Below, piece by piece: positions 1 through 54,194 of a stretch of 57,098 nt of DNA. Made by a program: the position numbers and the translations under genes. The stretch is from positions 71,609 through 128,706 of the forward strand of contig LSCF01000001.1 in assembly GCA_001577025.1 (NCBI GenBank), written 5' to 3'. How positions within the stretch are numbered: the stretch's first letter is position 1; each line of letters starts with the position of its first letter. The notes below the pieces were generated by a model. It was not told the DNA's origin, ran no database searches, and saw only the letters and a list, made by a program, of their open reading frames with translations. This DNA is from Fidelibacterota bacterium TCS55 (GTDB taxonomy: Bacteria; Fidelibacterota; Marinisomatia; Marinisomatales; TCS55).

Positions 1-528
1 TACCTTGCCATCCGATTCAATTTCCAGCGTTTCAGTAAAACCGCGGAGGGCGTGCTTCGAGGCGGCATAGCCCGCGTGTGCCGGAAAGCCCATCAGGGCC
101 TGTGCCGTAGTAACGGATACAATAACACCCTTTGATTTTTTTAATACTGGTAAAGATGCGTGGACACAATTCACGGCGCCCATATAATTTACATCCATGA
201 GTTTCTGAAAAAATGAAGGGTCGCTGATATCTTCAAAATTGGCCCACATGCTGACGCCTGCATTTAAAATTATACCGTCCACACCGCCAAAGGTTGCCAC
301 CGTTTTATCTACCAATGTCTTGCAGGCATTTCGACCCGTAATATCGGTCGGCACAGCAACGACCCTACCTCCATCCGATTCAATTTCATTCTGAATTCGG
401 TTGAGTTTATTTTCACTCCGGGCTGCCAATACTACACTGGCGCCGCGGGAGGATAAGCCTTTTGCCAGCCCTTCTCCAATGCCAGATGATGCTCCGGTAA
501 TGATAAAAATGGATCCTGAAATTTTTAT
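1..528 (-). CDS. Short-chain dehydrogenase/reductase (3' end beyond window), possible acyl/alkyl-DHAP reductase
   Basis: This is an NAD(P)-dependent SDR whose C-terminus lies outside the window. The N-terminus carries the Rossmann motif TGASSGIG, followed by the structural motif LNAG and the active-site stretch YAASK. The residue 13 before the catalytic Tyr, normally Ser, is Thr here. It directly follows the alkyl-DHAP synthase gene, so by context it may reduce acyl- or alkyl-DHAP to the glycerol form, the job done in animals by the SDR DHRS7B/PexRAP; that role is inference. The start is unclear: after the TAG of the upstream gene the same frame continues with no ATG, GTG or TTG before the Rossmann motif. 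ATA at 526-528, six bases after AGAGG, or ATT at 520-522 are the candidates, so the 5' end is provisional. Confidence 0.8.
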   Translation of the reverse strand, partial: MKISGSIFIITGASSGIGEGLAKGLSSRGASVVLAARSENKLNRIQNEIESDGGRVVAVPTDITGRNACKTLVDKTVATFGGVDGIILNAGVSMWANFEDISDPSFFQKLMDVNYMGAVNCVHASLPVLKKSKGVIVSVTTAQALMGFPAHAGYAASKHALRGFTETLEIESDGKV

Positions 529-537
529 GATAACCCT

Positions 538-2298
538 CTAAGGTTCGTTGGCAAATACGCCGTTGCGAATTCCAAATATATTGGCAGGGTCGTGGGCGTT
601 TTTTAAATCTTTAATCAATTCAATACTGGAATCAGAAATGGTATCTTTTACAAAATCTTTCCGAATCTTGCCTACGCCGTGATGGTGAGAAATGGACCCA
701 CCCTTATCCATGATGGCCTTTCGGATGGCATGCTCAATTTCGCCAAAGAGTTCTTCCGCCTCCGGTATATCTTTCACGCTCACCCCCACCATAAAGTAGA
801 TGCAGACCCCTGTATGGTAAATCTGAGGAATGCGGTAAGAGATATACGGCTTCCCGGGGAAATTGTGTTTTGCATGGTAGGTTAACAGCGTTTCGGTGGC
901 TGCTTCACAGACGGTTTTAATTTTACTCCACGGCACAGTGGTTTCCATGGTTTCACCAATGAAGTGGTAGTCCGTTAAAAAATCCCGGATGTAAGCAATG
1001 GCAAAGGTGAGCAGATATCCTCGTTTCCCATTTCCGGGACCGCCAATCAATCCGCCATGCTGTTTAGCCAGTTTTAAAATATTTTTTTCTTGATAGGCCA
1101 CTTCGCCCCTTGACCCCTCCATCACAAACGTGGTGGCGCACATTTTATCAGCATCAAACCTTTTCACCTTCAACACGAAGAATTTTTCTACTTTGCTCAT
1201 GAATGCCTTAAAGCCTTCTGCTTTGGGCTTCAGTGCTTGACCAAATCGGAATTGCACATTATCTACCAGTCGCACACTGGATGGTACATAGTTGGTTTTG
1301 GATAGGTCGTATAGAAATTTGGTTCCGGATTCGAAATCTTTAAAGATAACTGAGTTGTATTTTTTTGTTTCTGGCTTGTTATGAATTTTGAGGACAGCCT
1401 TGGTGATGATGCCCAGGTTTCCTTCTGATCCAAATAATATATTCTGAGGTTTAAACCCGATGGATGCACGGCTCAATGGCTCCACCTGTTCAATGACGCC
1501 TTTGGGCGAAATCATGGTTACATTTTCTACAATATCTTCAATATTGCCGTAGCGGTTTTTTTTCATACCGCTGGCGTTAGTGGCAATCCACCCGCCCAAG
1601 GTGGAAAGCTCTACACTGTCTGGTTCGTGGCCCATGCAATAACCTTTCTCCTCTAGCCAAGATTCCAAAGCGGTGCCGGTAATACCAGCCTGTACACAGA
1701 CGCGACGATCCTCTTCATTCAACCATTCAATCTGATCCATACGGCGCATATCTACGGATACAATCATCCGCTGTTCTGCGTCTGGAATCATTAAGGCGCT
1801 GGTTACATTTGTACCGCCGCCATAGGGCACAAGGCAAACATCGTGGGTTGCTGCCAATTGAATCAGCGCTTGCACGTCTGATTCTGACTCCACATAAAAT
1901 ACCATATCCACACATCGCGCTATACGATTATATAATACTTTATACACTTCTTCTGATGTGGTTTGGCCATGGCTGTGGAGAAGACGATCTTTATCATCGG
2001 TGGTAAAATGATCTTCAGAAAAATCTCTCCTTACTCCGTCCATAAATTCTTGATTCAGGTTAGGCGGTGTTACTGGTTTATGCTCCACTTCTGCCAATTT
2101 ATCGTTGGGGTCTACCGTTATGCCTAAAACTTCTTCAATATAAGGAATAAAGTCAGGCATCCGCGTGCCGGAGAGTTCATAGCGGTCTCCCACCATGGAT
2201 ACGGTTCTGTCTTCATTCAAAACAAAACTGGAATCCTTGTATCCCCATTTGTGGCCCCAGGTGGTGTGCTTGTTTGCAAAAAATTTTTTATCTGGCAT
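538..2298 (-). CDS. Alkyldihydroxyacetonephosphate synthase (AGPS-type FAD-linked oxidase)
   Basis: This 586-residue flavoenzyme should swap the acyl chain of acyl-DHAP for a fatty alcohol, forming the ether bond of ether lipids. The FAD-binding PCMH fold shows VPYGGGTNVTS (158-167), the stretch CMGHEPDSVELSTLGGW (221-237) and ASGMKKNRYGNIED (242-255), which I recognise as close to the mammalian peroxisomal enzyme. The C-terminal domain has the triple-histidine motif SHHHGVGKIRK with His538-540, essential in AGPS, and ends with a typical DPANIFGIRNG. Its length fits the family catalytic core without a peroxisomal presequence. The start overlaps the end of the acyltransferase gene by 11 bases, so the two are translationally coupled. 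Other FAD-linked oxidases such as D-lactate dehydrogenase lack the triple-His context, so I favour AGPS strongly. Confidence 0.88.
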   Translation of the reverse strand: MPDKKFFANKHTTWGHKWGYKDSSFVLNEDRTVSMVGDRYELSGTRMPDFIPYIEEVLGITVDPNDKLAEVEHKPVTPPNLNQEFMDGVRRDFSEDHFTTDDKDRLLHSHGQTTSEEVYKVLYNRIARCVDMVFYVESESDVQALIQLAATHDVCLVPYGGGTNVTSALMIPDAEQRMIVSVDMRRMDQIEWLNEEDRRVCVQAGITGTALESWLEEKGYCMGHEPDSVELSTLGGWIATNASGMKKNRYGNIEDIVENVTMISPKGVIEQVEPLSRASIGFKPQNILFGSEGNLGIITKAVLKIHNKPETKKYNSVIFKDFESGTKFLYDLSKTNYVPSSVRLVDNVQFRFGQALKPKAEGFKAFMSKVEKFFVLKVKRFDADKMCATTFVMEGSRGEVAYQEKNILKLAKQHGGLIGGPGNGKRGYLLTFAIAYIRDFLTDYHFIGETMETTVPWSKIKTVCEAATETLLTYHAKHNFPGKPYISYRIPQIYHTGVCIYFMVGVSVKDIPEAEELFGEIEHAIRKAIMDKGGSISHHHGVGKIRKDFVKDTISDSSIELIKDLKNAHDPANIFGIRNGVFANEP

Positions 2299-3016
2299 AG
2301 AATGATTTTCTTTCTTGTTGGATTTGACCTTCTAAAGTTTTGGTCATCTGATTGATCTGCTCATAATGGTCGCTGTCTTCTTCCGTGACAAAATCAGAAG
2401 GATGAATCGGTGGTAATATTGTGACATTCACACGGGCAGGATACATAATGAAGCGTCCCTTGGGCCATGACCGAAATGATCCGTCAATAAATATAGGCAC
2501 TATGGGCGCATTTAAATGAACTGAAAATCGGGCGGCCCCTTTTCGAAATGGTCTCATCATATTGGGCTCTCCCCTCGATCCTTCCGGAAAGATAACCAGG
2601 TTCCTTCCATCTTGATCCATGAAGGCTCGGCATAATTCGATGGTATCATCAAATGTAAAGGTATCACCATTTCTCTCCTCCGTTTTTCGGGCAATGGGTA
2701 CCAAGTTCATGACAAAGTTGGTTAGTGTCCGCTTTATGGTGCTATCAAACCAGTAATCTTTGGCCGCCAACATGCCGAAATAATTGAAGCTCTTTCCTGC
2801 GGCTGCACTGATGAGGGCCACATCCATATGGCTGTTATGGTTGCTGGTAAAAATGGCTGATTCATTTGGGAGGTTTTCACGCCCTGACACCCGAACAGGT
2901 GTATACCATAGGAATACAAACTTGCACCAATAATAAAACATCTTTTTCCAAAATTGAAAAAAGAGAGGCTGTTTGTTAACGAGATATGAATATTGCGGGT
3001 CTGCTAAAACGGACAT
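2288..3016 (-). CDS. PlsC-type lysophospholipid/DHAP acyltransferase
   Basis: This 242-residue membrane-associated acyltransferase of the LPLAT superfamily carries the catalytic HX4D motif in SNHNSHMD (His60 to Asp65) and the substrate-binding motif FPEGSRGEP (143-151). A hydrophobic N-terminal stretch at about 18-40 probably anchors it to the inner membrane. Family members move an acyl chain from acyl-CoA or acyl-ACP to glycerol-3-phosphate, lyso-PA or DHAP. Position just before and overlapping the alkyl-DHAP synthase suggests it could supply acyl-DHAP (the GNPAT role) or acylate the sn-2 position of the ether lipid; sequence alone does not decide this. It begins 12 bases after the HMG-CoA reductase stop, in the same minus-strand operon. 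Confidence 0.85.
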   Translation of the reverse strand: MSVLADPQYSYLVNKQPLFFQFWKKMFYYWCKFVFLWYTPVRVSGRENLPNESAIFTSNHNSHMDVALISAAAGKSFNYFGMLAAKDYWFDSTIKRTLTNFVMNLVPIARKTEERNGDTFTFDDTIELCRAFMDQDGRNLVIFPEGSRGEPNMMRPFRKGAARFSVHLNAPIVPIFIDGSFRSWPKGRFIMYPARVNVTILPPIHPSDFVTEEDSDHYEQINQMTKTLEGQIQQERKSFYAR

Positions 3017-3028
3017 CTCTGCACGTAT

Positions 3029-4180
3029 TTATCGACCATAGGTCATGTGGGCTTGGGTAAAGGTGTCGGAAGCAATGGCTGAAAAAAGTGAAATCTCCAA
3101 AGCCAATGCAGAGGCGCCGATAATTTCTGCCAGCTTTCTCGCTGCAAATTTACCTTGATCGCATCCAAGCAATTTCAAATTTTGTTTTTGGGGTAATAAC
3201 CTTGTGCCACCGCCCACTGTACCAATAGTTATTGTCGGTAGGGTTAATCTGAATTTTACACCATTATCCGTTGGCTCTGTCTGGTAATGGCCAATAGAGT
3301 TTTCAGCCACGCATGCTGTATCCTGGCCGGTGGCCAAATAGATGGCAGTGAGCGCATTTGAAATATGCAAATGACACCCCTCCGTGCCTGCCAAACGCGT
3401 AATGGTGGGCCCAACGCGTTGGAGCATGGCCATCTCGGATGTGTCTGCTTTGAGTATTCGACGAATAACGGGATTGGTGATGGTCGTCTCAACAATGACG
3501 CTATGGCCTCGGCCCATTATCATATTCCGCGCAGAAGCTTTTTTATCACTGTTGAACCCGGACTCTAAAAGGAAATTTGCCCCGGTTTGGTTTTTGATAT
3601 AATCGCAAGCCATTTTCGCCGCAAGAGTAACCATATTTTGCCCGGCTGCATTGCCCGTATCCAATACAAAGTCTAAAATCAAATAGTTTTGAATCGGGTA
3701 CTGATCAATACGCAAAAGCTTCCCATAATTGGATGTTTTATCCGCCACACGCTTTATGGATTTGAAATGTTTTGTGACCCAATCAGAAAATTTTGCAACA
3801 CTTTTTACATCATCAAAAATAAAAACGGGCGCCCGTGATAGCTCCTGCTTTACATGGGTTACATGAATTCCACCACAACGGCGTGTGGCAACCATACCTC
3901 TCGTCATGGACAATGCAAGTGTGCCTTCCAATGTGCATAGGGGCACATAGAACTCTCCCTTTGCATAATCCCCGTCAATCAGAAGCGGCCCAGCAATGGC
4001 CATGGGTACTTTCATGTAGCCGATGTGATTCTCGATGATACCTTTTAACTCCTCCGGGTTGTTTTCAAGTGTTGGATCAATCTCAACACCGGTTTTCTCC
4101 CGAAGCCAATCCAGCCGTCTGTCTGTATCGTCTTGGGTGTACCCGTTAGGTATCATGTGTTTTCCATTTTTCTTTGTCAT
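3029..4180 (-). CDS. Hydroxymethylglutaryl-CoA reductase, class I-like
   Basis: The 383-residue protein reduces HMG-CoA to mevalonate with NAD(P)H. Family motifs are clear: ENHIGYMKVPMAIAGPL (50-66), the catalytic Glu85 in CTLEGTLALSMTRG, the catalytic Lys in SDKKAS (211-216), Asp287 in ATGQDTAC, the glycine-rich TVGGGT (321-326) and the general acid His378 in AHMTYGR. The C-terminal AHM-x-x-x-R form points to class I. The usual nucleotide-binding GDAMGMNM is altered to GNAAGQNM (176-183), which may change cofactor use. No other mevalonate-pathway gene is in the window. It sits between the aldo/keto reductase (91 bases upstream) and the ether-lipid genes (12 bases downstream), suggesting co-transcription with a lipid-related programme. 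Confidence 0.88.
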   Translation of the reverse strand: MTKKNGKHMIPNGYTQDDTDRRLDWLREKTGVEIDPTLENNPEELKGIIENHIGYMKVPMAIAGPLLIDGDYAKGEFYVPLCTLEGTLALSMTRGMVATRRCGGIHVTHVKQELSRAPVFIFDDVKSVAKFSDWVTKHFKSIKRVADKTSNYGKLLRIDQYPIQNYLILDFVLDTGNAAGQNMVTLAAKMACDYIKNQTGANFLLESGFNSDKKASARNMIMGRGHSVIVETTITNPVIRRILKADTSEMAMLQRVGPTITRLAGTEGCHLHISNALTAIYLATGQDTACVAENSIGHYQTEPTDNGVKFRLTLPTITIGTVGGGTRLLPQKQNLKLLGCDQGKFAARKLAEIIGASALALEISLFSAIASDTFTQAHMTYGR

Positions 4181-4271: not shown

Positions 4272-5234
4272 TTAACGATATAGGTCTTGTACCCATTTCG
4301 CATCTTCATTGGATAGCGGTTCTCCCAATTGAGCTGCAACTTTTACTTGATCCTCGTTTCGCTGTCCAAGCAATACACATCCTGTGGGCGCATCCGTCAA
4401 CAGTGCGTCCACCAATCCATGCATCACCGGTTGGGAATGATCTGAAAATTGAATTTCTAATTTTGTCTTATTAGTCTGCATTTTATCAATCATTGTTTGA
4501 TTGGCAAAACCCTTCACCGTTGTGCGAAAGTCTCCCCTCTCAAAAGTGGCGGGACTTGTGTATTTTCCCGTAAGGAGCCCATGCTTTATAGGTGAAAAAA
4601 AGCAGATGCCTACATTGTAAGTGTCCACATAATCTTTTAGCCCTGAGGATGCATAGGTATCATCAATCACATTGCGATAGGGTTGGATGATATCCGGATT
4701 TACTCGATCAATATAGTTCATAATTTTATCTAAAAACCAATCGGAAAGGCCAATAAATCGCGTTTTGCCTTCTTCTTGAAATCGCTTAACCACATCAATT
4801 GCATCGTCAAAATATTCTTCCTGTTTTCCGAAATTGCAATGGTGGAGGTACATTAAATCCACACAATTTGTGTTCAGGTTTTTTAACGAGCGCTCCATGT
4901 TTGTCCGCATATGCTCTGGATGGTACCAGTGACTATAGGGACCCATATCCCACCCCACTTTGGTAGCGACAAAAATATCTCTGCGGGGGATCTCATCCCA
5001 CATGGAGCCGATGACTTTTTCAGAATGACCGTCACCATATACATCTGCAGTATCCCAATGGTTAATGGCGGAAGCATATGCCTTGCGCAATGCATTTTTG
5101 CTATCTTCGTCGGTTTGTCCGCCCCATCCCGCAGGCTGATTTTTGCCTGCCATGTTAGGGCCGCCATAAGACCATGTACCCAAACTGATTCGAGAAACAT
5201 TAACGCCGGTCCGCCCTAAGGTTACAATTTCCAT
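4272..5234 (-). CDS. Aldo/keto reductase
   Basis: A 320-residue TIM-barrel NADPH-dependent oxidoreductase of the AKR superfamily, of the potassium-channel-beta/YghZ-like type. The catalytic tetrad can be read: Asp61 and Tyr66 in WDTADVYGDG, Lys92 in VATKVGW and His131 in LMYLHH. The N-terminus (LGRTGVNVSRISLGTWSYGG) and the C-terminal cofactor region (CVLLGQRNEDQV) are typical. Its substrate is unknown; as first gene of the minus-strand group containing HMG-CoA reductase and ether-lipid genes it could act on a lipid aldehyde, which is speculation. It is transcribed divergently from the Smr gene, with about 50 bases between the likely starts. Confidence 0.88.
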   Translation of the reverse strand: MEIVTLGRTGVNVSRISLGTWSYGGPNMAGKNQPAGWGGQTDEDSKNALRKAYASAINHWDTADVYGDGHSEKVIGSMWDEIPRRDIFVATKVGWDMGPYSHWYHPEHMRTNMERSLKNLNTNCVDLMYLHHCNFGKQEEYFDDAIDVVKRFQEEGKTRFIGLSDWFLDKIMNYIDRVNPDIIQPYRNVIDDTYASSGLKDYVDTYNVGICFFSPIKHGLLTGKYTSPATFERGDFRTTVKGFANQTMIDKMQTNKTKLEIQFSDHSQPVMHGLVDALLTDAPTGCVLLGQRNEDQVKVAAQLGEPLSNEDAKWVQDLYR

Positions 5235-5655: not shown

Positions 5656-6585
5656 ATGACAACAAGCAACACATTTGACCAATTATTTCGCCATATGGTA
5701 CCCACCTCCATGGAGGGGATCCAGATTTTCAGCATGGATGATAATTATATTAAACCCCAGCGGTATAACGATGTCACCAATTTAGAAAATGGAATTTGGG
5801 AAGACCTTTTCATCAATGTTGCGCCCCTTATCGATCAGTATGTTTCCAGAGAATATTTATTGGGGATGCGCGCCCTCCCGATTCCCAAAGACCGATTCCC
5901 TGATTTTGAGGCCATTTCTCCATTGATTCAAAACTCCACCAATTGGCAACTTGTCTCTGTTGCAGGATTTTTATCCGAAGAATTGTTTTTCGACCTAAAT
6001 GCCAATCGAAAGTTTCCTGTGACGGATATCATTCGAAAGTCTCCCCGGTTTGAAGAAAAATATGCGGGCAAAGATATCCAAAACGATGAGGGATACACTC
6101 CTGAGCCGGATATTTTTCACGATATTCAGGGACACATTCCTTTTTTAATGAATAAAGACTATGCCGATTTCATGCATGATGTGGGCACACTTGGTGATAC
6201 GATTTTGAGAGATGAGCGAAAACTGGGGAGTGAACTGGTTGCCCATAACTTAAGGCGACTCCAAAATTTTGCATGGTGGACCTATGAATTTGGGTTAATC
6301 AAAAATAATGGTGGTACAGACAAGTTTCGCCGGCAAACCAATGACATTGATTATGAAATCTATGGTGCAGGTATTATTTCGTCTTTTGATGAAACGGTAA
6401 ATATTGTGAAGTGTGCAAAAGGTGAATCTAAGCGGTCTCAAATCTTGCCTTACGATATTGAAGAAATTGTGATGACTTGTTTTAATTATAGCGATATTCA
6501 GGATCGGTATTATGTCGTCGACTCCATGGAAGCCTTATTTGATTCATTCCGGAACAACCAGGAGTTGTTCTGGTTTGAAGGTTAA
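5656..6585 (+). CDS. phhA: Aromatic amino acid hydroxylase (phenylalanine 4-monooxygenase type)
   Basis: A 309-residue non-haem iron, pterin-dependent hydroxylase. The iron ligands are visible: His155 and His160 in EPDIFHDIQGHIP and Glu211 in WTYEFGLI. Upstream, VAGFLSEELFFDLNANRKFPV (103-122) matches the family segment preceding the active site. It lacks the N-terminal ACT regulatory domain of animal enzymes and fits the size of bacterial monomeric forms. Phenylalanine to tyrosine is the most likely reaction; tryptophan hydroxylation cannot be excluded by eye. No pterin-carbinolamine dehydratase (phhB) gene is nearby. An upstream ATG at 5648 stops after three codons, so ATG 5656 is the start. 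It precedes the TPR lipoprotein gene by 15 bases. Confidence 0.88.
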   Translation: MTTSNTFDQLFRHMVPTSMEGIQIFSMDDNYIKPQRYNDVTNLENGIWEDLFINVAPLIDQYVSREYLLGMRALPIPKDRFPDFEAISPLIQNSTNWQLVSVAGFLSEELFFDLNANRKFPVTDIIRKSPRFEEKYAGKDIQNDEGYTPEPDIFHDIQGHIPFLMNKDYADFMHDVGTLGDTILRDERKLGSELVAHNLRRLQNFAWWTYEFGLIKNNGGTDKFRRQTNDIDYEIYGAGIISSFDETVNIVKCAKGESKRSQILPYDIEEIVMTCFNYSDIQDRYYVVDSMEALFDSFRNNQELFWFEG

Positions 6586-36211: not shown

Positions 36212-37249
36212 TTAATTTTGAATTATATTTAATAAGCTTTGTTCTGCTTTTGGGTGCAGAACAAATTCTATGCCCAAGCTGAAAATGTTTATCCCGTCAA
36301 GATTAAGACCCCTTAGTTTTATGGCATCTTTTTCTGTGGTTATTACGGCATCTATGTTTGATTTTTTCATCTGATCCCGAATTTGATCTATATCTTCTTG
36401 CGTATAATCATAATGGTCCATAAAAAACATTTTTTCCACGATGGATATGCCCGCCTGATTGATTGTTCGCGTAAACCCTGCCGGGTCTCCTATGGCTGCA
36501 ACCGCCATCATCCGAGCTTCAGGTTTCATTATTTTATTGCTGTCTTTAATATGCTTGGGAGCCCCAATTGAATAGCGGCTTTTTAGCCTTGGTCTATTTA
36601 TTCTTCTAGCCAAAGATCTTAAAAATGGCGCAGGTTTTTTCAGGTTATATTTTGTAAAAATAATGACGTCTGCCCGCTTCAGGCTCATCCACGGTTCTCG
36701 CAGCATGCCATACGGCAGGAGCTTATGTGTGGCTCGACTGTCTTGACTGTTGATTAATACAATATCAATATCCCGTTCAATTGCCCGATGCTGAAACGCA
36801 TCATCCATAATTATTATATCGGGGTTAAATCGATCGACCAACACCATCCCGCCCCGGTGGCGATTGCTATCTACCGCGATAGGAACGCCAGGCAGCGCAT
36901 TGGCCATTAGTGTTGGTTCGTCGCCAAAATTTCGCCAATCTGTGACCGGGGTTTTCCCATCTGTTACCACCTGGGTTCCAGCCGTTTTTCTACCATACCC
37001 TCGACTCAAAATGGACACGCGATGACCTTGAGATAAAAGCATTTTCGCCAAATAAATAACGGCAGGGGTTTTGCCGGTGCCGCCTGAAGTTATGTTGCCA
37101 ACGCTGATGACCTTTGCCGGGAGCTTTCTCGTAACAAAAAACCCCATTGAGTAAAAAAGGTTTCTCCAAAACGTGATGCCCCAATACAATAGCGCCAGGG
37201 GAAAAAGGGCATATCTGAATTTCGGTTCAATCTGGTGTTTCCATGCCAA
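36212..37249 (-). CDS. lpxK: Tetraacyldisaccharide 4'-kinase
   Basis: The 345-residue inner-membrane enzyme phosphorylates the 4' position of the lipid A disaccharide precursor. It has an N-terminal membrane helix (about 13-38), the P-loop VGNITSGGTGKTP (50-62), SILSRGYGRK and the DDAFQHR motif that carries catalytic residues. It overlaps the upstream DUF374 gene by 23 bases and follows lpxB, giving a lipid A block. It converges on the large FG-GAP gene with four bases between stops. Confidence 0.94.
   Translation of the reverse strand: MAWKHQIEPKFRYALFPLALLYWGITFWRNLFYSMGFFVTRKLPAKVISVGNITSGGTGKTPAVIYLAKMLLSQGHRVSILSRGYGRKTAGTQVVTDGKTPVTDWRNFGDEPTLMANALPGVPIAVDSNRHRGGMVLVDRFNPDIIIMDDAFQHRAIERDIDIVLINSQDSRATHKLLPYGMLREPWMSLKRADVIIFTKYNLKKPAPFLRSLARRINRPRLKSRYSIGAPKHIKDSNKIMKPEARMMAVAAIGDPAGFTRTINQAGISIVEKMFFMDHYDYTQEDIDQIRDQMKKSNIDAVITTEKDAIKLRGLNLDGINIFSLGIEFVLHPKAEQSLLNIIQN
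36238..36265. other. Hairpin between convergent gene ends
   Basis: TTTGTTCTGC and GCAGAACAAA form a perfect 10-base stem around an eight-base loop, inside the last codons of lpxK and just beyond the stop of the FG-GAP gene. It lacks a T-run on either side, so it is at best a weak or Rho-assisted terminator for the plus-strand gene. Confidence 0.45.
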
Positions 37250-37913
37250 CGCGACGCTCCACTTCTTTTTCGAGACTATTTAAAGCAATCCTTAACCGCT
37301 CTGCACAGTTATTATAACTTTCATTCGGTTCAAGGAAAATTGGCTCCCCAAAAAGTTGAATTATTTTACCATGAGGCTTTGATAAATAAAATGTATCCCA
37401 ATTTGTGAAAGACCACCTTTTTGTTGATTGGCCAGCGGCGGGGACAATCACCGCTCCTGTTTTTTGTGCCGCCCGAATGGTGCCTGCTTTTGGAATTTTT
37501 GCGGGGCCCTGTGGTCCGTCTGGTGTTATGGCAAAAACGTTTCCAGGCGTCTTTAATATATTTAACATACTGTCGTAAGCGGCTTTACCCCCATCCGTTG
37601 ATGATCCGCGAATCACATCCCACCCCAATTTTGCGCCGATCCTGGATATGATTTCTGCCTCAGGATGGTGGTTACCAGCTAAGCCGTGAAAGTTTTTATT
37701 CGCTAATCCCATAAACACTGTCAAGAGCGTGCTGTGCCAAGATGCAATAATAACGGATTTTCCGCTACTTATTGCGTCTTCATAGTGGTGGGCGCCTTCA
37801 AATTCCCATTCGTTTGTATGATAAAAATATTTGAGAAGTTTTGGTCCAACTCTTTCTCCAAACCATACCAAAAATCTGTTTTTTAATCTGCGTTCGTTTT
37901 GTGGATTAGCCAT
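37227..37913 (-). CDS. DUF374-type lysophospholipid acyltransferase
   Basis: A 228-residue acyltransferase-like protein. The motif IIASWHSTLLTVFMGL is the DUF374 counterpart of HX4D, GSSTDGGKAAYDSML follows, and AITPDGPQGPAKIPKAGTIR is the DUF374 signature. Proteins of this family sit in lipid A gene clusters and may acylate lipid A or a related lipid, as LpxL does. It overlaps lpxB by eight bases and lpxK by 23, so it is clearly part of that operon. The exact substrate is unknown. Confidence 0.82.
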   Translation of the reverse strand: MANPQNERRLKNRFLVWFGERVGPKLLKYFYHTNEWEFEGAHHYEDAISSGKSVIIASWHSTLLTVFMGLANKNFHGLAGNHHPEAEIISRIGAKLGWDVIRGSSTDGGKAAYDSMLNILKTPGNVFAITPDGPQGPAKIPKAGTIRAAQKTGAVIVPAAGQSTKRWSFTNWDTFYLSKPHGKIIQLFGEPIFLEPNESYNNCAERLRIALNSLEKEVERRVGMETPD

Positions 37914-39039
37914 GAATCGTTCTCTTTATAATGGCGTCTGCTGCCCGCTCATAAACGCCCGGCAGTCCAAGCGCTCGACGTACTTCATTGAACCCATCCA
38001 ACATTTTCCGCCTTTCGTTCGTATGTTTTAATAGGGGATCAATGGCTTTTAAAATGTTTTTTGATGTGACATTGTTTTGAAGCAGCTCGGGCACAACCCC
38101 CCTGCCCAAAATTAAATTAGCCATACTTACATATGGTGATTTGTTTAGTCGCTTCGCAAGAAATCCTGACACGCCCGACAATTTATAACAGACAACCTCT
38201 GGTGTGTCTAAAACGGCGCACTCAAGGCTCGCCGTCCCAGATGTTGTAATGGCAGCGGTGCTATGACTTATTGCAGATCGAATGTCATCTGTTTCTATTA
38301 AAATGTCGTTTCCATAATTTTTTATTGATACACCGGACGCTTTGCCAATTAATATTTTTACGTTTTGATTTGATTTTTGAGCCGCTCTAGCCGCTTCTAT
38401 ATATATAGATAGGTGGCGATCAATTTCTTGCTGTCGACTGCCTGGCAACAACAATAAAATGCGGTCTGTTTCATGAATGTTGTGCTTTCGATAAAAATGA
38501 TCTTTTGTTGTTTTGGGTCCTTCAATTTCAGAAAAGGGGTGTCCTACATATTCAGTTTCTACCCCCCGGGATTCAAACCATTCTGGCTCAAAAGGAAAAA
38601 TACTAAGGGATTGATCTATAAATTGATGAAAATATTTTATTCTATTTTCTTTCCAGGCCCACAGCTGGGGTAAAATGAAATATGTAGTGGGAATATGCAG
38701 GCCGTGACTGTTCTTTGCCAGCCTTAAATTGAAGCCTGGATAGTCTATTAATATAATTCGATCTGGCTTTAGAGATCTGAGACGTCCCAAGGTCTCCCCC
38801 ATTACATTTAACATATAGGGCATGTGCTTTATGATTTCAGAAAAACCCATGATGGCCAAATCATCTGTGTGGTGCATTGCCTCCAGCCCAGCTGAACACA
38901 TGTTGTCACCACCGTGTCCAACAAACCGCGCCTCGGGGTGTGTTTTTTTAATCGCCTCCATCAGGTTTCCGCCGTGGAGGTCTCCAGACGCTTCTCCGGC
39001 AACAATAAAAAAAGTCGGCACTCTATTATCCGTCTTCAT
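37906..39039 (-). CDS. lpxB: Lipid-A-disaccharide synthase
   Basis: The 377-residue GT19 glycosyltransferase joins UDP-2,3-diacylglucosamine and lipid X. It shows the N-terminal FIVAGEASGDLHGGNL, then IDYPGFNLRLAK, YFILPQLWAWKENR, YVGHPF, LLLPGSRQQEI and the C-terminal donor site TTSGTASLECAV. Length and motifs fit the family. It lies 30 bases downstream of the methyltransferase gene and overlaps the DUF374 gene. LpxB, LpxK and the acyltransferase together show that the organism makes lipid A. Confidence 0.95.
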   Translation of the reverse strand: MKTDNRVPTFFIVAGEASGDLHGGNLMEAIKKTHPEARFVGHGGDNMCSAGLEAMHHTDDLAIMGFSEIIKHMPYMLNVMGETLGRLRSLKPDRIILIDYPGFNLRLAKNSHGLHIPTTYFILPQLWAWKENRIKYFHQFIDQSLSIFPFEPEWFESRGVETEYVGHPFSEIEGPKTTKDHFYRKHNIHETDRILLLLPGSRQQEIDRHLSIYIEAARAAQKSNQNVKILIGKASGVSIKNYGNDILIETDDIRSAISHSTAAITTSGTASLECAVLDTPEVVCYKLSGVSGFLAKRLNKSPYVSMANLILGRGVVPELLQNNVTSKNILKAIDPLLKHTNERRKMLDGFNEVRRALGLPGVYERAADAIIKRTIHG

Positions 39040-39069
39040 TGGGACATTCCCCGGAATCCAGCTTCGCTT

Positions 39070-39648
39070 TTATGTAAAATATTGAACGCGAGCCGTAATA
39101 AGAAGCAGGACAAGAAAAACGTTTTGCAGCGTTCTTTTTTCGGTTTTAATTGTTTTGCCTAGGCTGGCCGGCGTTCGGTTGTCGTTGCTATTCCACCGTG
39201 AGAGTCGAGGAAAAATGGCGGGCACATTCTTTTTATACTCAACATAGTTTTCACCAAATAGATTGTCTAATGTTTCTTCTTCCAGCGAAATAATTAATGA
39301 GTATTGGATTAAAAAAAACGAAAAGGTCGTGGCAACCATTAGAAAAATGTTCGCCGCCCCCGCAATAAGCACGATTCCCACATACATTAACATGTTGCCT
39401 ACATATAGGGGGTTTCGCACAAAAGCGTAAGGTCCTGATGAGCATAGTGCCGGTGCCCCCACATTCCGGGTGCGGGTTTCTCCGCCCGCATATGATACGG
39501 CCCAAATTCTGATTAGCTCACCACAGATAAGTAACGTGACGCCCAAAGGAAGATATGCATTGGTGGGTCGTGCAAAATATATAATCATTAAACCTATAGG
39601 AATCGGGGTAAAGCTTCTGAATTTGAAAAAGAAATTTCTAATGTCCAT
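39070..39648 (-). CDS. Isoprenylcysteine carboxyl methyltransferase (ICMT)-like membrane methyltransferase
   Basis: A 192-residue integral membrane protein with about four to five helices. The ICMT/PEMT signature appears in GPYAFVRNPLYVGNMLMYVG and in the later EEETLDNLFGENYVEYKKNV, where E-x-x-L-x-x-x-F-G-x-x-Y-x-x-Y-x-x-x-V-P is conserved. Such enzymes use S-adenosylmethionine to methylate lipids or small molecules in the membrane; bacterial substrates are mostly unknown. It starts two bases after the Gfo/Idh gene and precedes lpxB, so a lipid role is likely by context. Confidence 0.75.
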   Translation of the reverse strand: MDIRNFFFKFRSFTPIPIGLMIIYFARPTNAYLPLGVTLLICGELIRIWAVSYAGGETRTRNVGAPALCSSGPYAFVRNPLYVGNMLMYVGIVLIAGAANIFLMVATTFSFFLIQYSLIISLEEETLDNLFGENYVEYKKNVPAIFPRLSRWNSNDNRTPASLGKTIKTEKRTLQNVFLVLLLITARVQYFT

Positions 39649-39650
39649 TG

Positions 39651-40637
39651 TTAGTGTAGCCCTTCAAGGATTTTATTGTGAATTTGTATAGCCACGTCAA
39701 GAGCGTTTTTCCCCGCAACGCCATCTACGATTGGTGTGGCTTTTCCCTGTGTAGCGTCGATAAAGTTTTGCAGCTCTAGCCTTAAAGCATCTTGCTTTTT
39801 TATTTTTGGTTTTTCATAAAAAATTTGCCTGTGTTTCCCGTTTGATACAATGGGTGCAGACATAATGGCGGAGGGGTCTGTTTGGTCTGCGTCCATGACG
39901 CGGTATACCTCAGTAAGGCCAATTAAAAAGTCGATTGTGATATATAAATCTTGCTGAAATACTTTTATTTTTCTAACCCGGTCTTTTGCAACGCGGCTGG
40001 ATGTAATGTTGGCCACCACGCCATTTTCAAATTCTATGCGCGCATTGGCAATATCAACAGAGTTGGTCATAATTGAAACACCGTCTGCTTGAATGGTTTT
40101 CACCTGGGAGTTGGTAAAAGCCAAAATTAAATCTATGTCATGGATCATCAAATCAAGAACAACGGGCACATCGGTGCCCCGACTCATATACGGGGCCAGT
40201 CTTTGGACTTCGATATATTTGGGCTTCACGTCAAGGTTTCTTAGTGGTAAAAGGGCGGGGTTAATCCGTTCAATGTGGCCAACTTGAATAATAACGTTCT
40301 TTTTTTGTGCAAGATTAATCAGCGCCTCGGCTTCATCCACGGTTTGGGAGATCGGTTTTTCAATGAAGACATGCTTGCCTTTTGCAATACATGCTTCTGC
40401 GACAAGTTTATGGTGCTCCGTTGGCGTTACAACTGAAACGGCATCTGTTTTTTCCAGCAATGCATCAAGAGATGCAAACGCGCTTGTCTTATATCGCTTT
40501 GCCACCTCATTGCTCTTGTTTGCGTCAATATCATAAACGCCCATAAGTTCTGCGTTCGATATGTTTGAATAATGTTTAGTGTGGTGTGTCCCCAAGTGGC
40601 CGACGCCAACGACACCGATTTTTGTTTTTTGTTTCAT
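39651..40637 (-). CDS. Gfo/Idh/MocA-family oxidoreductase, possibly acting on a UDP-sugar
   Basis: The 328-residue NAD(P)-dependent enzyme has an N-terminal Rossmann fold (KIGVVGVGHLGTHHTKHYSN), the family motif VFIEKPISQTVDEAEAL with the cofactor-binding EKP, and the second domain with VLDLMIHDIDLILAF, where the DLMIHDID stretch carries active-site His and Asp. First gene of the minus-strand lipid A block. In some bacteria a Gfo/Idh enzyme (GnnA) oxidises UDP-GlcNAc at C3 so that lipid A is made with amide-linked acyl chains; that is a possible role here, but the partner aminotransferase GnnB is not in the window. Confidence 0.82.
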   Translation of the reverse strand: MKQKTKIGVVGVGHLGTHHTKHYSNISNAELMGVYDIDANKSNEVAKRYKTSAFASLDALLEKTDAVSVVTPTEHHKLVAEACIAKGKHVFIEKPISQTVDEAEALINLAQKKNVIIQVGHIERINPALLPLRNLDVKPKYIEVQRLAPYMSRGTDVPVVLDLMIHDIDLILAFTNSQVKTIQADGVSIMTNSVDIANARIEFENGVVANITSSRVAKDRVRKIKVFQQDLYITIDFLIGLTEVYRVMDADQTDPSAIMSAPIVSNGKHRQIFYEKPKIKKQDALRLELQNFIDATQGKATPIVDGVAGKNALDVAIQIHNKILEGLH

Positions 40638-40788
40638 CGAATTATATTTACTGGTTCTACGGTGACGAAATTACAGGATATATTTTATAAGGTGGTAAAG
40701 GTATAAAGGCTTGCTTTTCACGTCACAACTAGGCAATTTACCGACAATAATTCTGAGGGTCTCTCTGTGTTTATAGCGGTATTTAACC

Positions 40789-41328
40789 ATGAATGAAAAC
40801 ATAAAAATTGGTGTGGGGTTTTTATTTCCCGCGGCGGCGCTAATCGCCTTTTTTGTTTCTATTTTATTTGAACAATTTCTTTTGGGCATTCTTATTGCTG
40901 TTGCCGGTATTTTTGCATGGTTTCTTTATACTGCCGTCATGGAAACCAACATGCCAACCGTTACCGGAAATATTATAATTGTTTTTGGTGTGCTTCTCTC
41001 GCTTGCTGCTTTCTTGAATTACGGGATTGAGCAAAATATGTTTGGTGGGTTTTCTATTGACCTGGAGGGTCTTTCTGGGTCCGCGATCTTGTTATTCTTT
41101 AGTGTGCTTTTGGGTGTTCTTTTTCGAAATAAATCATTTTCTCCTACACGCGCTCCCGTGACAAATCAACCCACCTCCCCGTTGATTGATCCTGTGGAAA
41201 AAGAGCCCGTCGATGACAGCGGTGATGACGATGTTGGGTATGACTATCCAGACGATGAGGATTATGAGGCTTTTTATTCTGACTATTTTGACGACGACTC
41301 ACCATATGAATATGATGAGGAGGAATAG
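40789..41328 (+). CDS. Membrane protein with acidic cytoplasmic tail
   Basis: The 179-residue protein has four hydrophobic helices (about 8-26, 28-48, 60-78 and 95-110) and then a long tail rich in Asp, Glu and Tyr (DSGDDDVGYDYPDDEDYEAF to the end DEEE). There is no signal peptide apart from the first helix. I do not recognise the family. It is transcribed away from the lipid A block and converges on dnaA, with seven bases between the stops. Confidence 0.6.
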   Translation: MNENIKIGVGFLFPAAALIAFFVSILFEQFLLGILIAVAGIFAWFLYTAVMETNMPTVTGNIIIVFGVLLSLAAFLNYGIEQNMFGGFSIDLEGLSGSAILLFFSVLLGVLFRNKSFSPTRAPVTNQPTSPLIDPVEKEPVDDSGDDDVGYDYPDDEDYEAFYSDYFDDDSPYEYDEEE

Positions 41329-41335
41329 CCACCAA

Positions 41336-42688
41336 CTAGTTCAGTGCAAAAGAGAGTTCGTTTTTTAGTTCACCGACCAATGCAGAAATGCGTTGGTCTT
41401 TTTTTGTTTTGTTCTCTACAACACGACATGCGTGAAGGACTGTTGAGTGGTCCCGACCCCCGAAGTGCATTCCAATGCTCACCAGGGGTGTCCCAAGGAT
41501 TTCCCGACATAAATAAATCGAAATCTGTCTTGCCTCGGCAATTTCCATTTTTCGGCTGGCGCCTACAATTTCTTTTTCTTTAATGTGTGTTGTTTCTGAA
41601 ACCCGCCGAACAATATCCTCAATGGAGAGGTCCGAAATGGCGCTAGATCCAATTCTTTCTTTAATCACTTTTTTCGCCAGCCCATAATCAATTTCACGAT
41701 TAGACAAGGATGAGTGTGCCAGCAGTCTAATAATCGTGCTTTCCAGGTCTCTCACATTTTTTTTAATGTGTGTGCCAATTAGTTCAATAATATCATATGG
41801 CAGTTTCAATCCGTTTACTTCTGCCTTTTCCATTACAATAGCAACTCGCGTTTCAAAGTCGGGTGGTTGAATATCTACAGACAGTCCAGATTTAAACCTT
41901 GACAAAAGTCGATCTTGCAAGCCAATCATTTCGCCAGGATATCGATCTGCGGTCATTACAATTTGTTTTCCCGATTGGAACAGTTCGTTGAAAGTGTGAA
42001 AAAATTGTTCTTGCGTTTGCTCTTTCCCTTGAAAAAATTGAATATCGTCAATTAAAAGGACATCGGCAATTCTATATGACTTTGAAAACTCCACCGTCCT
42101 ATTTTTTTGTATTGAAGAAATAAAGTCTAAGGTAAATTTTTCACTGGATGCGCAAACGACTTTCTTTTCGGGGCTTTCTTCTGTTATTTTATTTCCTATC
42201 GCATGAAGCAGGTGGGTTTTCCCCATACCAACGCCGCCATATATAACTAGCGGATTAAACGACTGCTGTCCCGGCGTTTCGCTCACATTAAGCGCAGCTG
42301 CTTTTGCGAACTGATTGTGCCCTCCCTGTATAAACGAGGCAAATGTATATTTATCGTTTATGTTTTTGTTTTTCTGGCGTTGCGTTTGTGGCTTTGTCTG
42401 CCAGTTCGTTTTGGTTTGGTTTGTTGGTTCTTCGCCTTCACCGTCAGGAGAGACCGTATATTTAATGTTTATTTCTCCACCGTTCGCTTTAAACACCCCT
42501 TTTTCTATTGTCTCTTTATGGTGTGACTGAATCCATTCGAAGAAAAATTGATTCGGCACTTCTAAAATTAGGGTGTCCCCACTAAGCCCTATGGAGCCTA
42601 TGGGTTCAAACCATGTTGAATAGGCATGTGATGGCTCTGTTTCTTTTAGGGTCTTTTTGGCCTTATCCCACAAAAAATCGTGTTTCAT
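41336..42688 (-). CDS. dnaA: Chromosomal replication initiator DnaA
   Basis: The 450-residue AAA+ protein binds DnaA boxes and opens the origin. Domains: N-terminal domain I (about 1-75), a Gln/Lys-rich linker (about 85-112), the AAA+ core with Walker A GGVGMGKT (151-158), Walker B LLIDDIQFF (211-219) and the arginine-finger region DRLLSRFKSGL, and C-terminal domain IV with GGRDHSTVLHACR, the signature contact to DnaA boxes. It is transcribed to the left, divergent from rpmH, and is not beside dnaN, which lies 10 kb away. Two DnaA boxes directly upstream suggest autoregulation. Confidence 0.97.
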   Translation of the reverse strand: MKHDFLWDKAKKTLKETEPSHAYSTWFEPIGSIGLSGDTLILEVPNQFFFEWIQSHHKETIEKGVFKANGGEINIKYTVSPDGEGEEPTNQTKTNWQTKPQTQRQKNKNINDKYTFASFIQGGHNQFAKAAALNVSETPGQQSFNPLVIYGGVGMGKTHLLHAIGNKITEESPEKKVVCASSEKFTLDFISSIQKNRTVEFSKSYRIADVLLIDDIQFFQGKEQTQEQFFHTFNELFQSGKQIVMTADRYPGEMIGLQDRLLSRFKSGLSVDIQPPDFETRVAIVMEKAEVNGLKLPYDIIELIGTHIKKNVRDLESTIIRLLAHSSLSNREIDYGLAKKVIKERIGSSAISDLSIEDIVRRVSETTHIKEKEIVGASRKMEIAEARQISIYLCREILGTPLVSIGMHFGGRDHSTVLHACRVVENKTKKDQRISALVGELKNELSFALN

Positions 42689-42695
42689 TTAATAG

Positions 42696-42715
42696 TTTTC
42701 CACATGTTTTCCACA
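42696..42715 (+). promoter_or_regulatory. dnaA: Two DnaA boxes upstream of dnaA
   Basis: TTTTCCACA at 42696-42704 and again at 42707-42715 differ from the consensus TTATCCACA by one base each and lie 8 and 19 bases upstream of the dnaA start. They could control dnaA expression or form part of a bipartite origin. The rest of this 183-base dnaA-rpmH gap must hold divergent promoters, but I cannot point to clear ones. Confidence 0.6.
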
Positions 42716-42871
42716 ATTGTAATTCTCTCAATTTATGTTTCTTTTTCACCATACAACAACGATCTTTTTCTGCCAATTGTCATATGGTGGTTTTTATAAT
42801 ACATCTTAACCATTTTCTTTGGTCGTTTTAGACAAAAGGGGGTATCTTTCCGGGCTAAATTTGGAGCAATA

Positions 42872-43006
42872 ATGAAGCGTACATATCAACCAAGTAAACG
42901 AAAAAGAAAAAACAAGCACGGCTTTAGGTCTAGAATGTCATCTGTGGGTGGCAAAAAAGTATTGGCTCGCCGTCGGAAAAAGGGTAGAAAGTCTCTCTCT
43001 GCATAG
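42872..43006 (+). CDS. rpmH: 50S ribosomal protein L34
   Basis: This 44-residue protein reads [20 protein letters not shown] and continues with [20 protein letters not shown], an unmistakable L34. A Shine-Dalgarno-like GGAG lies seven bases upstream of ATG. It binds the large-subunit rRNA. In most bacteria rnpA follows; here yidD starts 13 bases after the stop, leaving no room for it. Confidence 0.97.
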
Positions 43007-43019
43007 GGTCTGCTGATTT

Positions 43020-43268
43020 GTGGTGAAAACTATCTCTAACTTTTTCAAAAAAACACTATTGGGTTTGATTCGTTTGTATCAAACCACCCTTTCTCCTTTA
43101 TTGGGTGGTCATTGCCGTTTTTCTCCAACCTGCTCACATTATGCCGCTGATGCCCTAACGTCACACGGCCTGTTTAGGGCTATATATCTTGCTTTAAGGC
43201 GCATAACAAGGTGCCATCCGTTTTCGGACGGCGGATTTGATCCTGTGCCTAAAAAAATTAATGGATAG
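43020..43268 (+). CDS. yidD: Membrane protein insertion efficiency factor YidD
   Basis: An 82-residue protein with the family core LIRLYQTTLSPLLGGHCRFS, PTCSHYAADAL and RRITRCHPFSDGGFDPVP. It is thought to help YidC place proteins in the inner membrane. The start is GTG 43020, or the next GTG at 43023. It overlaps yidC by eight bases. Directly follows rpmH, without the usual rnpA in between. Confidence 0.94.
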   Translation: MVKTISNFFKKTLLGLIRLYQTTLSPLLGGHCRFSPTCSHYAADALTSHGLFRAIYLALRRITRCHPFSDGGFDPVPKKING

Positions 43269-44916
43269 AAAAACCCTTCTTGCCTTCGCTTTAATTGCGG
43301 TTGTGCTTATTCTCACGCCATGGTATATGAACCTGGTGGCTCCAATTCCTGAGGAAAGCCCACCTGCATCGACTGGGCCCATACAAGGGACACAACCTCA
43401 ACAACCCACAACGCCCACCCCTAGGGCAACAAGCACAGCAATAAAGTCTGTAGAAACGAATAAGCAGCAATCTATTGAGGTTGGAAATAATCTGTTCACC
43501 GCAACGCTTAGCAATCGCGGTGGGGGCTCCTTTACTTCTTTTATTCTTCATCAGTACAGCAAACACGACTCTACAAAGGTTAACCTGATCGGTGAGGAAA
43601 ATTTGGACAATATGTTGATAGGTTTTGTTTCTCTAGATGGTGATCGGGTGGCGCTAGACCATAATTGGACAGTCGACACTCAAACCTCCTCGTTTGTTGT
43701 AGACCGCAACGAAAAACATGTCGCTTTTAAAACCTTTCACAATGGGAATGTTGTTCGAAAAACCTTTACTATTAATCCCGACTCATATCAGATTGGCGTG
43801 GGCATATCTTTTGAGAACCCCGATCGCTACATCTCTCGAGATCAATATGTTGTTTCGTGGGCGGGTGGTGTTGCCTCTACAGAAAAAAACACGAAAGATG
43901 AGTACACATACTTTAAGGGGTATGCATATTTAGGCGATGAGCTTTTAGAACCATCGGCCCCCGAAGGGCGGGTCGAAGCTGAAAAACAAACAGGGAACAC
44001 GCGTTGGACCGCAGTAAAAACAAAGTATTTTATTTCAGCGCTTATTCCGGAAACATATGCGGTCGGCGCTGAGGTTTTGGGGTCAACCGTTGACGGCCGC
44101 CCTCATTTTGAAACACGAATGCGGCAAAACGTTTCGAGCTCAAACCGCTACAACCTATATATGGGTCCCCTTGATTATGAGCGCGTAGAGTCTTTGGGTG
44201 TTGGGCTTGAAAGCACCATGAACCTTGGCTGGGCGATCATTAGGCCTTTAGGCCGCCTGGTAACCTGGTCTCTTAAAAAAATGTATGGAATAATACCAAA
44301 CTATGGTTTTGTGGTTATATTGTTTGCGGTCTTGGTGAAGATAATTTTAAATCCGCTTACAAAAAAGCAGATGGTTTCTACACGAAAAACGCAGGCGCTC
44401 CAACCCCAAATTCAGCGCCTAAAAGAAAAATATAAAAACGACTCGCAAAAGCTCAACAAAGCACAAATGGCCCTTTTTAAAGAAAAGGGCGTGAACCCCC
44501 TAGGGGGCTGCCTGCCTCTTTTCCTGCAAATGCCCATTCTCATCGCCTTTTTTACAGTTTTCCGATCTACAATAGAATTCCGGGGCGCACCTTTTTTTGG
44601 CTGGATTAACGACTTAAGCCAACCAGACACTCTAACAACAATTGGTGGCTTTCCTTTAAACGTGCTCCCCTTTTTAATGGGCGCAACTATGTTTCTTCAG
44701 CAAAAATACATGTCGCCAACGAGTGGCGATGGCGGGCAACAAAAATTTATGCTTTATGCTATGAACGTATTCTTCCTGTTTTTGTTTTATTCGTTCCCTT
44801 CGGGGTTAAATTTGTATTATTCTGTTTTTAATATTCTATCCATTATCCAGCAAAAATATTTTATACCTGAAGTCAACCTGTCTTCTTCTGGAAAAAGCGC
44901 TAAGATAAGCAAATGA
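43261..44916 (+). CDS. yidC: Membrane protein insertase YidC
   Basis: The 551-residue insertase places proteins into the inner membrane. It has an N-terminal helix (ALIAVVLILTPWYMNLV), a large periplasmic domain (about 50-340) typical of Gram-negative YidC, and the C-terminal five-helix core with YGFVVILFAVLVKIILNPLT, GCLPLFLQMPILIAFF and SFPSGLNLYYSVFNILSIIQ. ATG 43261 is chosen because it starts the signal-anchor; the longer frame adds eight residues within yidD. It overlaps mnmE by four bases (ATGA). Confidence 0.95.
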   Translation: MDRKTLLAFALIAVVLILTPWYMNLVAPIPEESPPASTGPIQGTQPQQPTTPTPRATSTAIKSVETNKQQSIEVGNNLFTATLSNRGGGSFTSFILHQYSKHDSTKVNLIGEENLDNMLIGFVSLDGDRVALDHNWTVDTQTSSFVVDRNEKHVAFKTFHNGNVVRKTFTINPDSYQIGVGISFENPDRYISRDQYVVSWAGGVASTEKNTKDEYTYFKGYAYLGDELLEPSAPEGRVEAEKQTGNTRWTAVKTKYFISALIPETYAVGAEVLGSTVDGRPHFETRMRQNVSSSNRYNLYMGPLDYERVESLGVGLESTMNLGWAIIRPLGRLVTWSLKKMYGIIPNYGFVVILFAVLVKIILNPLTKKQMVSTRKTQALQPQIQRLKEKYKNDSQKLNKAQMALFKEKGVNPLGGCLPLFLQMPILIAFFTVFRSTIEFRGAPFFGWINDLSQPDTLTTIGGFPLNVLPFLMGATMFLQQKYMSPTSGDGGQQKFMLYAMNVFFLFLFYSFPSGLNLYYSVFNILSIIQQKYFIPEVNLSSSGKSAKISK

Positions 44917-46232: not shown

Positions 46233-46246
46233 TTTCACGTGAAACC
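46231..46246. other. parS-like palindrome overlapping the mnmG start
   Basis: GTTTCACGTGAAAC at 46232-46245 matches the ParB-binding parS consensus TGTTTCACGTGAAACA in 14 of 16 positions (only the outer bases differ). It includes the last two bases of the mnmE stop (46231-46232) and the GTG start of mnmG (46239-46241). parAB is not in the window. Confidence 0.8.
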
Positions 46247-48104: not shown

Positions 48105-48105
48105 T

Positions 48106-48121
48106 TGTTTCACGTGAAACA
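48106..48121. other. Perfect parS site
   Basis: TGTTTCACGTGAAACA at 48106-48121 equals the 16-base parS consensus bound by ParB, located between mnmG and mfd. parS sites normally cluster near the origin, in line with dnaA and dnaN nearby. Confidence 0.9.
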
Positions 48122-48138
48122 ATAACGTTTACACCCCC

Positions 48139-51228: not shown

Positions 51229-51293
51229 TTTTCACCGCTCATTTTTGATAATAAATTTCGTTTTTTATCGACGATCCTAAGGAAATATTGAAC

Positions 51294-52631: not shown

Positions 52632-52756
52632 CGGTCTTTCAACGGTTTCCACAGTTGTTTTCCACAGTTATTGTTTTTTTAATTTATTTTAACCTTGCCT
52701 GGCTATGGTTGTGTAAACCTGCCGCTTTGTCCACATTTATCATTTATTTATCCACA
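52612..52756 (+). promoter_or_regulatory. Cluster of five DnaA boxes (candidate oriC)
   Basis: All five read in the plus direction: TTATCCACA at 52612-52620 and 52748-52756 (perfect consensus), GTTTCCACA 52645-52653, TTTTCCACA 52658-52666 and TTGTCCACA 52727-52735 (one or two changes). The first lies inside the end of surA, the rest in the surA-dnaN gap. Same-direction clustering next to an AT-rich stretch and dnaN is the usual look of a DnaA-dependent origin. Confidence 0.75.
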
Positions 52757-53008
52757 TAAAGTAGTGGGTGAGGTTCTTTTCTTAAGCCGTTGTTTTTATA
52801 GTTTTACTGTTTGGTCTTTTTGTTTACACTTTTGTTATCAACATTATAATAAATAATCTCTTATTCTTAATAATGTTTGCTATTAATAAATACCCTCCAT
52901 TTCTGACGGAAATTCCCTTGTTAAAACACGATGTTTTGGGTAAGATCGTCAGGCAATTTCAATCATTAAATTATTGGTTAATTCCTATTTGAAAACCTGG
53001 GAAAAAAC
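52632..53008. other. surA-dnaN intergenic region, candidate origin of replication
   Basis: The only gap over 300 bases in the window (377 bases) has no gene. Its left part carries DnaA boxes; the stretch 52770-52900 is strongly AT-rich (for example AACATTATAATAAATAATC) and could be the DNA-unwinding element. The right part leads into dnaN. I found no tRNA, terminator or repeat of note. Plus-strand base composition changes sign across it. Confidence 0.65.
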
Positions 53009-54127: not shown

Positions 54128-54194
54128 TGTTTGAAGTATTATTTTTTCTCAAACCCAAACACCAATAAAATCACCCCAAAGACATAGCGTGTCT

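Follow-up and report, generated by a model that had tools for sequence, protein, structure and literature searches.

The window analysed here, a 57,098-nucleotide stretch of contig LSCF01000001.1, begins with four minus-strand genes (positions 1-4180) that appear to form an operon for the synthesis of glycerol ether lipids. The host is an uncultured marine bacterium of Candidatus Neomarinimicrobiota (Fidelibacterota, SAR406), and the nearest named records are metagenome-assembled genomes (MAGs) of Candidatus Neomarinimicrobiota, placed in Fidelibacterota by NCBI ranks. Its assembly comprises 1.72 Mb in 98 contigs and is 92% complete; genome-wide statements on this organism refer to family searches of that assembly. 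The operon opens with a homologue of 3-hydroxy-3-methylglutaryl-CoA (HMG-CoA) reductase (HMGR; 3029-4180; PF00368, 340 bits), which resembles the enzyme FcrA and is predicted to be an alcohol-forming fatty acyl-CoA reductase. It is followed by a PlsC-type acyltransferase (2288-3016; PF01553, 70 bits), the predicted dihydroxyacetone phosphate (DHAP) acyltransferase, by alkylglycerone-phosphate (alkyl-DHAP) synthase (AGPS; 538-2298; 586 aa), and by a short-chain dehydrogenase/reductase (SDR; 1-528, continuing past the window edge), the predicted alkyl-DHAP reductase. The HMGR homologue lies 12 nt upstream of the acyltransferase gene, the acyltransferase and AGPS genes overlap by 11 nt, and the SDR starts directly past the AGPS stop codon and ends 279 bases outside the window (L002:11331-12143; stop at L002:11331, equivalent to G000:C1:71330). 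The initial annotation of this DNA had described an acyltransferase, an AGPS-type enzyme and an SDR that overlap or abut, and all three were found at the coordinates given there, on the minus strand. However, three genes are not the full extent of the cassette, as the HMGR homologue upstream belongs to the same conserved unit and makes four. A fifth member was also considered and rejected, namely an aldo-keto reductase (4272-5234) that is retained in the nearest relatives only.

The same gene order is seen in about 30 further genomes, where the flanks differ, and is therefore not due to chance. The complete order HMGR-PlsC-AGPS-SDR was found in the compared loci of families f1, f7, f18, f20, and f30, and HMGR-PlsC-AGPS in family f3, where the contig ends. 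The HMGR homologue stands beside AGPS in every locus compared, the gaps between the HMGR homologue and PlsC are mostly 0-15 nt, and PlsC and AGPS mostly overlap. Among 245 Fidelibacterota genomes, in which strong AGPS carriers (54) were counted, 52 code for both the HMGR homologue and AGPS, two for AGPS only, none for the HMGR homologue only, and 191 for neither (Fisher p about 2e-51, relatedness ignored). In one AGPS-only genome (G144, 64% complete), the locus stops at a contig edge. Of 13 genomes in the genus to which the window belongs, seven carry both genes and six carry neither, a patchy joint presence which argues for the loss or gain of the two genes together.

The other AGPS-only genome (G193), which is 94% complete, carries in the HMGR slot a gene for a 563-aa protein, followed by PlsC, AGPS, and SDR. 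This protein belongs to the classical alcohol-forming fatty acyl-CoA reductases (FAR; PF07993, 219 bits, and PF03015; PDB 7eoz, E = 2e-75), and the fact that it stands in for the HMGR homologue is the best indication that the latter provides AGPS with fatty alcohol. The presence of a true FAR at another place in the window's genome was considered and rejected, since the best PF07993 match there reached 53.7 bits, the level of epimerases, against 219 for the G193 enzyme.

We estimate a probability of about 0.84 that the operon is self-contained for the initial steps in the synthesis of non-isoprenoid glycerol ether lipids, all of its substrates and the production of ether lipids being predicted from sequence. 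The FcrA-type HMGR homologue would carry out the four-electron reduction of a long-chain acyl-CoA (or acyl-ACP, the acyl carrier protein thioester) to a fatty alcohol, and the PlsC-type enzyme would convert DHAP to 1-acyl-DHAP. AGPS would then replace the acyl group with the fatty alcohol, yielding 1-O-alkyl-DHAP, the ketone of which would be reduced by the SDR to 1-O-alkyl-glycerol-3-phosphate. The ordinary PlsC and head-group enzymes of the cell could finally turn this product into alkyl-acyl phospholipids. Acyl-DHAP formation, ether exchange, and ketone reduction had been foreseen in the initial annotation and fit the sequence evidence. In the scheme proposed here, the HMGR-like gene, from which most can be learned about the cassette, supplies fatty alcohol as the missing substrate. 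Gene order and its conservation, the catalytic residues, the lack of an HMG-CoA synthase and the classical FAR in the place of the HMGR homologue are direct observations on the DNA. As for further modification of the products, no match to the plasmalogen desaturase family (PF10520) was obtained in 61 genomes, a result that leaves absence unproven because control genomes were silent too.

The step most open to another reading is that of the acyltransferase (ACYLTRANSFERASE), a protein of 242 aa of which the only PDB match is PlsC (5kym, E = 2e-15) and which keeps the PlsC motifs NHNSHMD and FPEGSRG, as do its counterparts across cassettes. In sequence it is PlsC-type and not GNPAT/PlsB-type, an analogue of GNPAT in function only, and for that reason we infer its role on DHAP. 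It probably acylates DHAP. In another version of the same pathway, this enzyme would be an sn-2 acyltransferase acting on 1-alkyl-glycerol-3-phosphate after the SDR step, and acyl-DHAP would come from another enzyme, as might be expected of a PlsC-family protein whose one relative of solved structure is a lysophosphatidate acyltransferase. This arrangement is possible but rather unlikely. The window's genome codes for PlsY and for four PF01553 proteins including that of the cassette, so that ordinary diacyl synthesis is independent of the cassette enzyme; one of the three others, available with PlsY for ordinary sn-1 and sn-2 acylation, is much nearer to the consensus of the Pfam family (112 vs. 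71 bits). In addition, AGPS requires acyl-DHAP, and no other gene dedicated to making it was seen. Loci of Latescibacterota and Gemmatimonadota also speak against sn-2 acylation, as they carry a FAR, a protein of ~650 aa, AGPS, and SDR, the second slot thus being filled by an acyltransferase that gave no sequence match but has a fold like those of PlsC and a plant glycerol-3-phosphate acyltransferase. This ~650-aa family (L163:7856-9814, L164:6027-8084, L172:7694-9730, L173:7836-9857, L174:2098-4038, and L196:7978-9912) has no significant Pfam match and bears an HX4D motif. An AlphaFold model of moderate confidence (pLDDT 67) has PlsC and the squash glycerol-3-phosphate acyltransferase as its best Foldseek matches, with a probability of 1.00 and E-values of only 3e-3 to 4e-3. 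By its motif and its acyltransferase-like fold, the family is a probable GNPAT analogue.

The HMGR homologue is the single one of its genome. FcrA, described in 2025, is an HMGR-derived fatty acyl-CoA reductase that has been assayed and works in wax ester synthesis (PMC11948995). Its signature combines the retained catalytic Glu, Lys, Asp, and His with Ser684 replaced by Glu, loss of the HMG-binding Lys, and a bulky residue in place of Leu862 (PMC11948995); the HMG-binding Lys is printed as residue 795 in that report and corresponds to Lys735 by alignment. The window protein shows the same pattern, with catalytic Glu559, Lys691, Asp767, and His866 retained and with Ser684 changed to Glu, Lys735 to Gly, and Leu862 to Phe. 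Across the cassettes, all 28 HMGR homologues have Glu or Asp at position 684, never Lys at position 735, and Phe or Trp at position 862, and the four catalytic residues are invariant. The FcrA of Promineifilum does not reduce HMG-CoA (PMC11948995). As for domain structure, the window protein is 383 aa long with its core starting at about residue 20, and it bears no N-terminal Lad or ACP extension; such an extension is specific to certain FcrA (PMC11948995) and hence does not define them. In an unrooted tree built without an outgroup, canonical HMGRs fall on one side of a branch (support 100/99) and the Promineifilum protein lies between. The HMGR homologue is most likely the source of the fatty alcohol from which the ether-linked chain derives.

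Membership in the Pfam family HMG-CoA_red and the four catalytic residues might suggest a genuine HMG-CoA reductase that produces mevalonate, for isoprenoid metabolism or for an isoprenoid alcohol tied to the ether pathway. This is very unlikely. The protein scores 288 bits against TIGR00533, the HMGR equivalog family, below the cut-off of 441.8, and a fatty acyl-CoA reductase occupies the same slot in G193. A search for HMG-CoA synthase (PF01154; later mevalonate enzymes were not searched) found none in the window's genome, and only FabH-level scores in other cassette carriers. IspG, of the methylerythritol phosphate pathway, is present in this genome and in all 31 high-quality relatives. The lack of HMG-CoA synthase, the presence of IspG, and the replacement of Ser684 and Lys735, both HMG-binding, led us to rule out a mevalonate enzyme. 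The fatty alcohol might instead go mainly into wax esters or some other product, as with the characterised FcrA (PMC11948995), the AGPS neighbourhood then being secondary. This is highly improbable given that the HMGR homologue and AGPS are present or lost jointly; moreover, wax ester synthase/diacylglycerol acyltransferase (PF03007) had no match in 61 genomes including the window's, although silence in the control genomes leaves that absence unproven.

The product of 538-2298 is AGPS by sequence, with a predicted exchange of acyl group for fatty alcohol on DHAP. Residues 14-579 match mammalian AGPS (PDB 4bby) with 485 bits (E = 2e-144), compared with 284 bits for the Dictyostelium enzyme (2uuu) and 85 bits for the best D-lactate dehydrogenase. 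The similarity to the animal enzyme reported in the initial annotation, HHH motif included, was confirmed: 562 residues align with guinea-pig AGPS at 40% identity, and H224, D227, R343, R438, Y501, and H538-H540 correspond to guinea-pig H300, D303, R419, R515, Y578, and H615-617, equivalents of which are present in 11 other cassette AGPS as well. These guinea-pig positions, which we take to be active-site residues, were chosen partly on the basis of the AGPS structures. In a quick tree of 50 proteins, the window protein falls in a Fidelibacterota clade (SH-aLRT 100) that is itself within bacterial AGPS, and D-lactate dehydrogenase lies far outside; as the outgroup was one partial D-lactate dehydrogenase on a long branch and the Myxococcus xanthus AGPS was left out, the exact placement of the eukaryotic sequences is not to be over-read. 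The phylogeny suggested in the initial annotation as a check, in which a position among D-lactate or glycolate oxidases would have spoken against AGPS, thus places the protein inside the bacterial AGPS clade. That it is some other flavin-linked oxidase of the D-lactate/glycolate dehydrogenase superfamily, with which AGPS shares the PF01565 and PF02913 domains, has a negligible chance and was ruled out by the 400-bit margin in favour of AGPS and by the tree, and the equivalents of R419, R515, Y578, and HHH are all kept. Other members of the phylum carry a second AGPS-like flavoprotein of ~30% identity (L110:4902-6572, L111:4499-5878, L112:1410-3284, and L113:4086-5687), and in each case a protein of ~527 aa is encoded next; that of L111, which was scanned, resembles glycerol-3-phosphate dehydrogenase/oxidase. 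These loci are probably a different system.

The SDR is a classical member of its family (NCBIfam PRK06181, 237 bits for a cut-off of 215), with the Rossmann motif TGASSGIG and the YxxxK motif (YAASK); DHRS7B was not among the PDB matches listed for it. In most of the Fidelibacterota, Latescibacterota, Gemmatimonadota, and Acidobacteriota loci compared, AGPS is followed by an SDR that matches the cassette profile, which is not so in those of Chloroflexota. The SDR start position, 10 codons before TGASSG, is homologous across loci. Among 44 distinct loci, there are 11, the window being one of them, in which no in-frame ATG, GTG, or TTG precedes the motif; in most of these the position is occupied by ATT, ATA, or ATC, and in the others by different codons. 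An SDR without an ordinary start codon was noted at window positions 528-1 and in L001, L003-L005, L007, L008, and L014-L018. Initiation at a rare codon or coupling to AGPS translation is possible, and gene callers will truncate the cassette SDR where an ordinary start codon is lacking.

Several points weigh against the proposed pathway. The assayed FcrA homologue bears an N-terminal Lad domain, which the window protein lacks, and the cassette HMGR homologues form a clade of their own with at best about 41% identity to the Promineifilum FcrA. Acylation by the PlsC-type enzyme could come later, at sn-2. Thr takes the place of the catalytic Ser of the SDR in 21 of the 27 proteins aligned, the window's included, and the start of the gene is irregular, the position homologous to that of its relatives, by comparison with which it was placed, being ATA (528-526). 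Finally, the AGPS gene of M. xanthus is behind only a minor part of its ether lipids (PMC9131029).

Among known systems, the mammalian peroxisomal pathway (FAR1, GNPAT, AGPS, and DHRS7B/PexRAP) has the four chemical roles predicted for the cassette. The AGPS of mammals and that of the cassette are truly homologous in sequence and share their active-site residues, and this part of the parallel with GNPAT, AGPS, and DHRS7B drawn in the initial annotation stands; the GNPAT part is an analogy of predicted function, as the cassette acyltransferase is PlsC-type. The cassette further differs in being a single bacterial operon with an HMGR-derived reductase for FAR1, and its SDR is a counterpart of DHRS7B in predicted role. 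In M. xanthus, the operon MXAN_1676-1674 codes for AGPS, a FAR/GNPAT-like fusion, and an epimerase-family protein (PMC9131029). Together with the elb operon, it resembles the cassette in joining AGPS to a fatty-alcohol-forming domain, a GNPAT-like acyltransferase domain, and an NAD-dependent oxidoreductase. However, a single protein, MXAN_1675, unites FAR and acyltransferase, the third protein is of the epimerase/dehydratase family, and no HMGR homologue was reported (PMC9131029). FcrA shares with the cassette protein the retained catalytic residues, the three substitutions, and an occurrence in organisms without the mevalonate pathway, whereas the cassette protein lacks the Lad domain, belongs to its own clade, and lies directly inside an AGPS operon. 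In Ca. Promineifilum breve, AGPS lies nine genes away from FcrA, from which an ether-lipid role was only speculated (PMC11948995). In the Black Sea, a BLAST screen found Agps homologues, of the same family and from the same phylum as the window's, in 49 of 134 Marinisomatota MAGs (PMC11868695, 2025); the parts of that report consulted describe neither a cassette nor a link to FcrA nor the order of a pathway.

The reductase slot also varies in other phyla. One Nostoc has a thioester reductase, PlsC, AGPS, and SDR, and a Chloroflexota MAG has a PF07993 reductase adjoining AGPS. AGPS homologues in Fidelibacterota and FcrA itself are already published; in open-licence PMC papers, no description was found of the four-gene operon with FcrA, of its phylum-wide conservation, or of the exchange of FcrA and FAR in one slot. 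On that literature, the operon is the first direct operon-level support found for FcrA feeding ether lipid synthesis. It is about an even call that SAR406, abundant in the ocean interior, makes alkyl-ether membrane lipids by an oxygen-compatible, animal-like route with fatty alcohol from a repurposed HMG-CoA reductase, that it could be an unrecognised source of non-isoprenoid glycerol ethers in seawater and sediments, and that the reductase slot is an interchangeable module holding FcrA, FAR, or thioester reductase according to the phylum. SAR406 is accordingly a candidate ocean source of alkyl glycerol ethers, and an annotation as HMG-CoA reductase in its genomes is not to be taken as mevalonate synthesis. 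As a candidate for a complete and compact set of genes with which bacteria make glycerol ethers, the operon could also be moved into E. coli as one unit.

Among further observations on AGPS loci, Nostoc cf. edaphicum LEGE 07299 (L148:321-5379) carries consecutive genes for ACP, a thioester reductase with a TubC docking domain, PlsC, AGPS, and SDR, which suggests a polyketide- or ACP-derived ether-linked chain. In a Propionibacteriaceae MAG (L193:11958-14879), a FAR domain is fused to a HAD hydrolase domain just downstream of AGPS. Elsewhere in the window, a phenylalanine 4-monooxygenase homologue (5656-6585; PF00351), which scores under the NCBIfam equivalog cut-offs, is consistent with oxygen use, and lpxK and lpxB are followed by dnaA, yidC, mnmE, mnmG, dnaN, and recF (36212-55274), so that the lipid A genes adjoin a probable replication-origin region. 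The characterisation of the organism as aerobic-looking and possessing lipid A is reasonable in view of these genes, the former belonging to an O2-using family.

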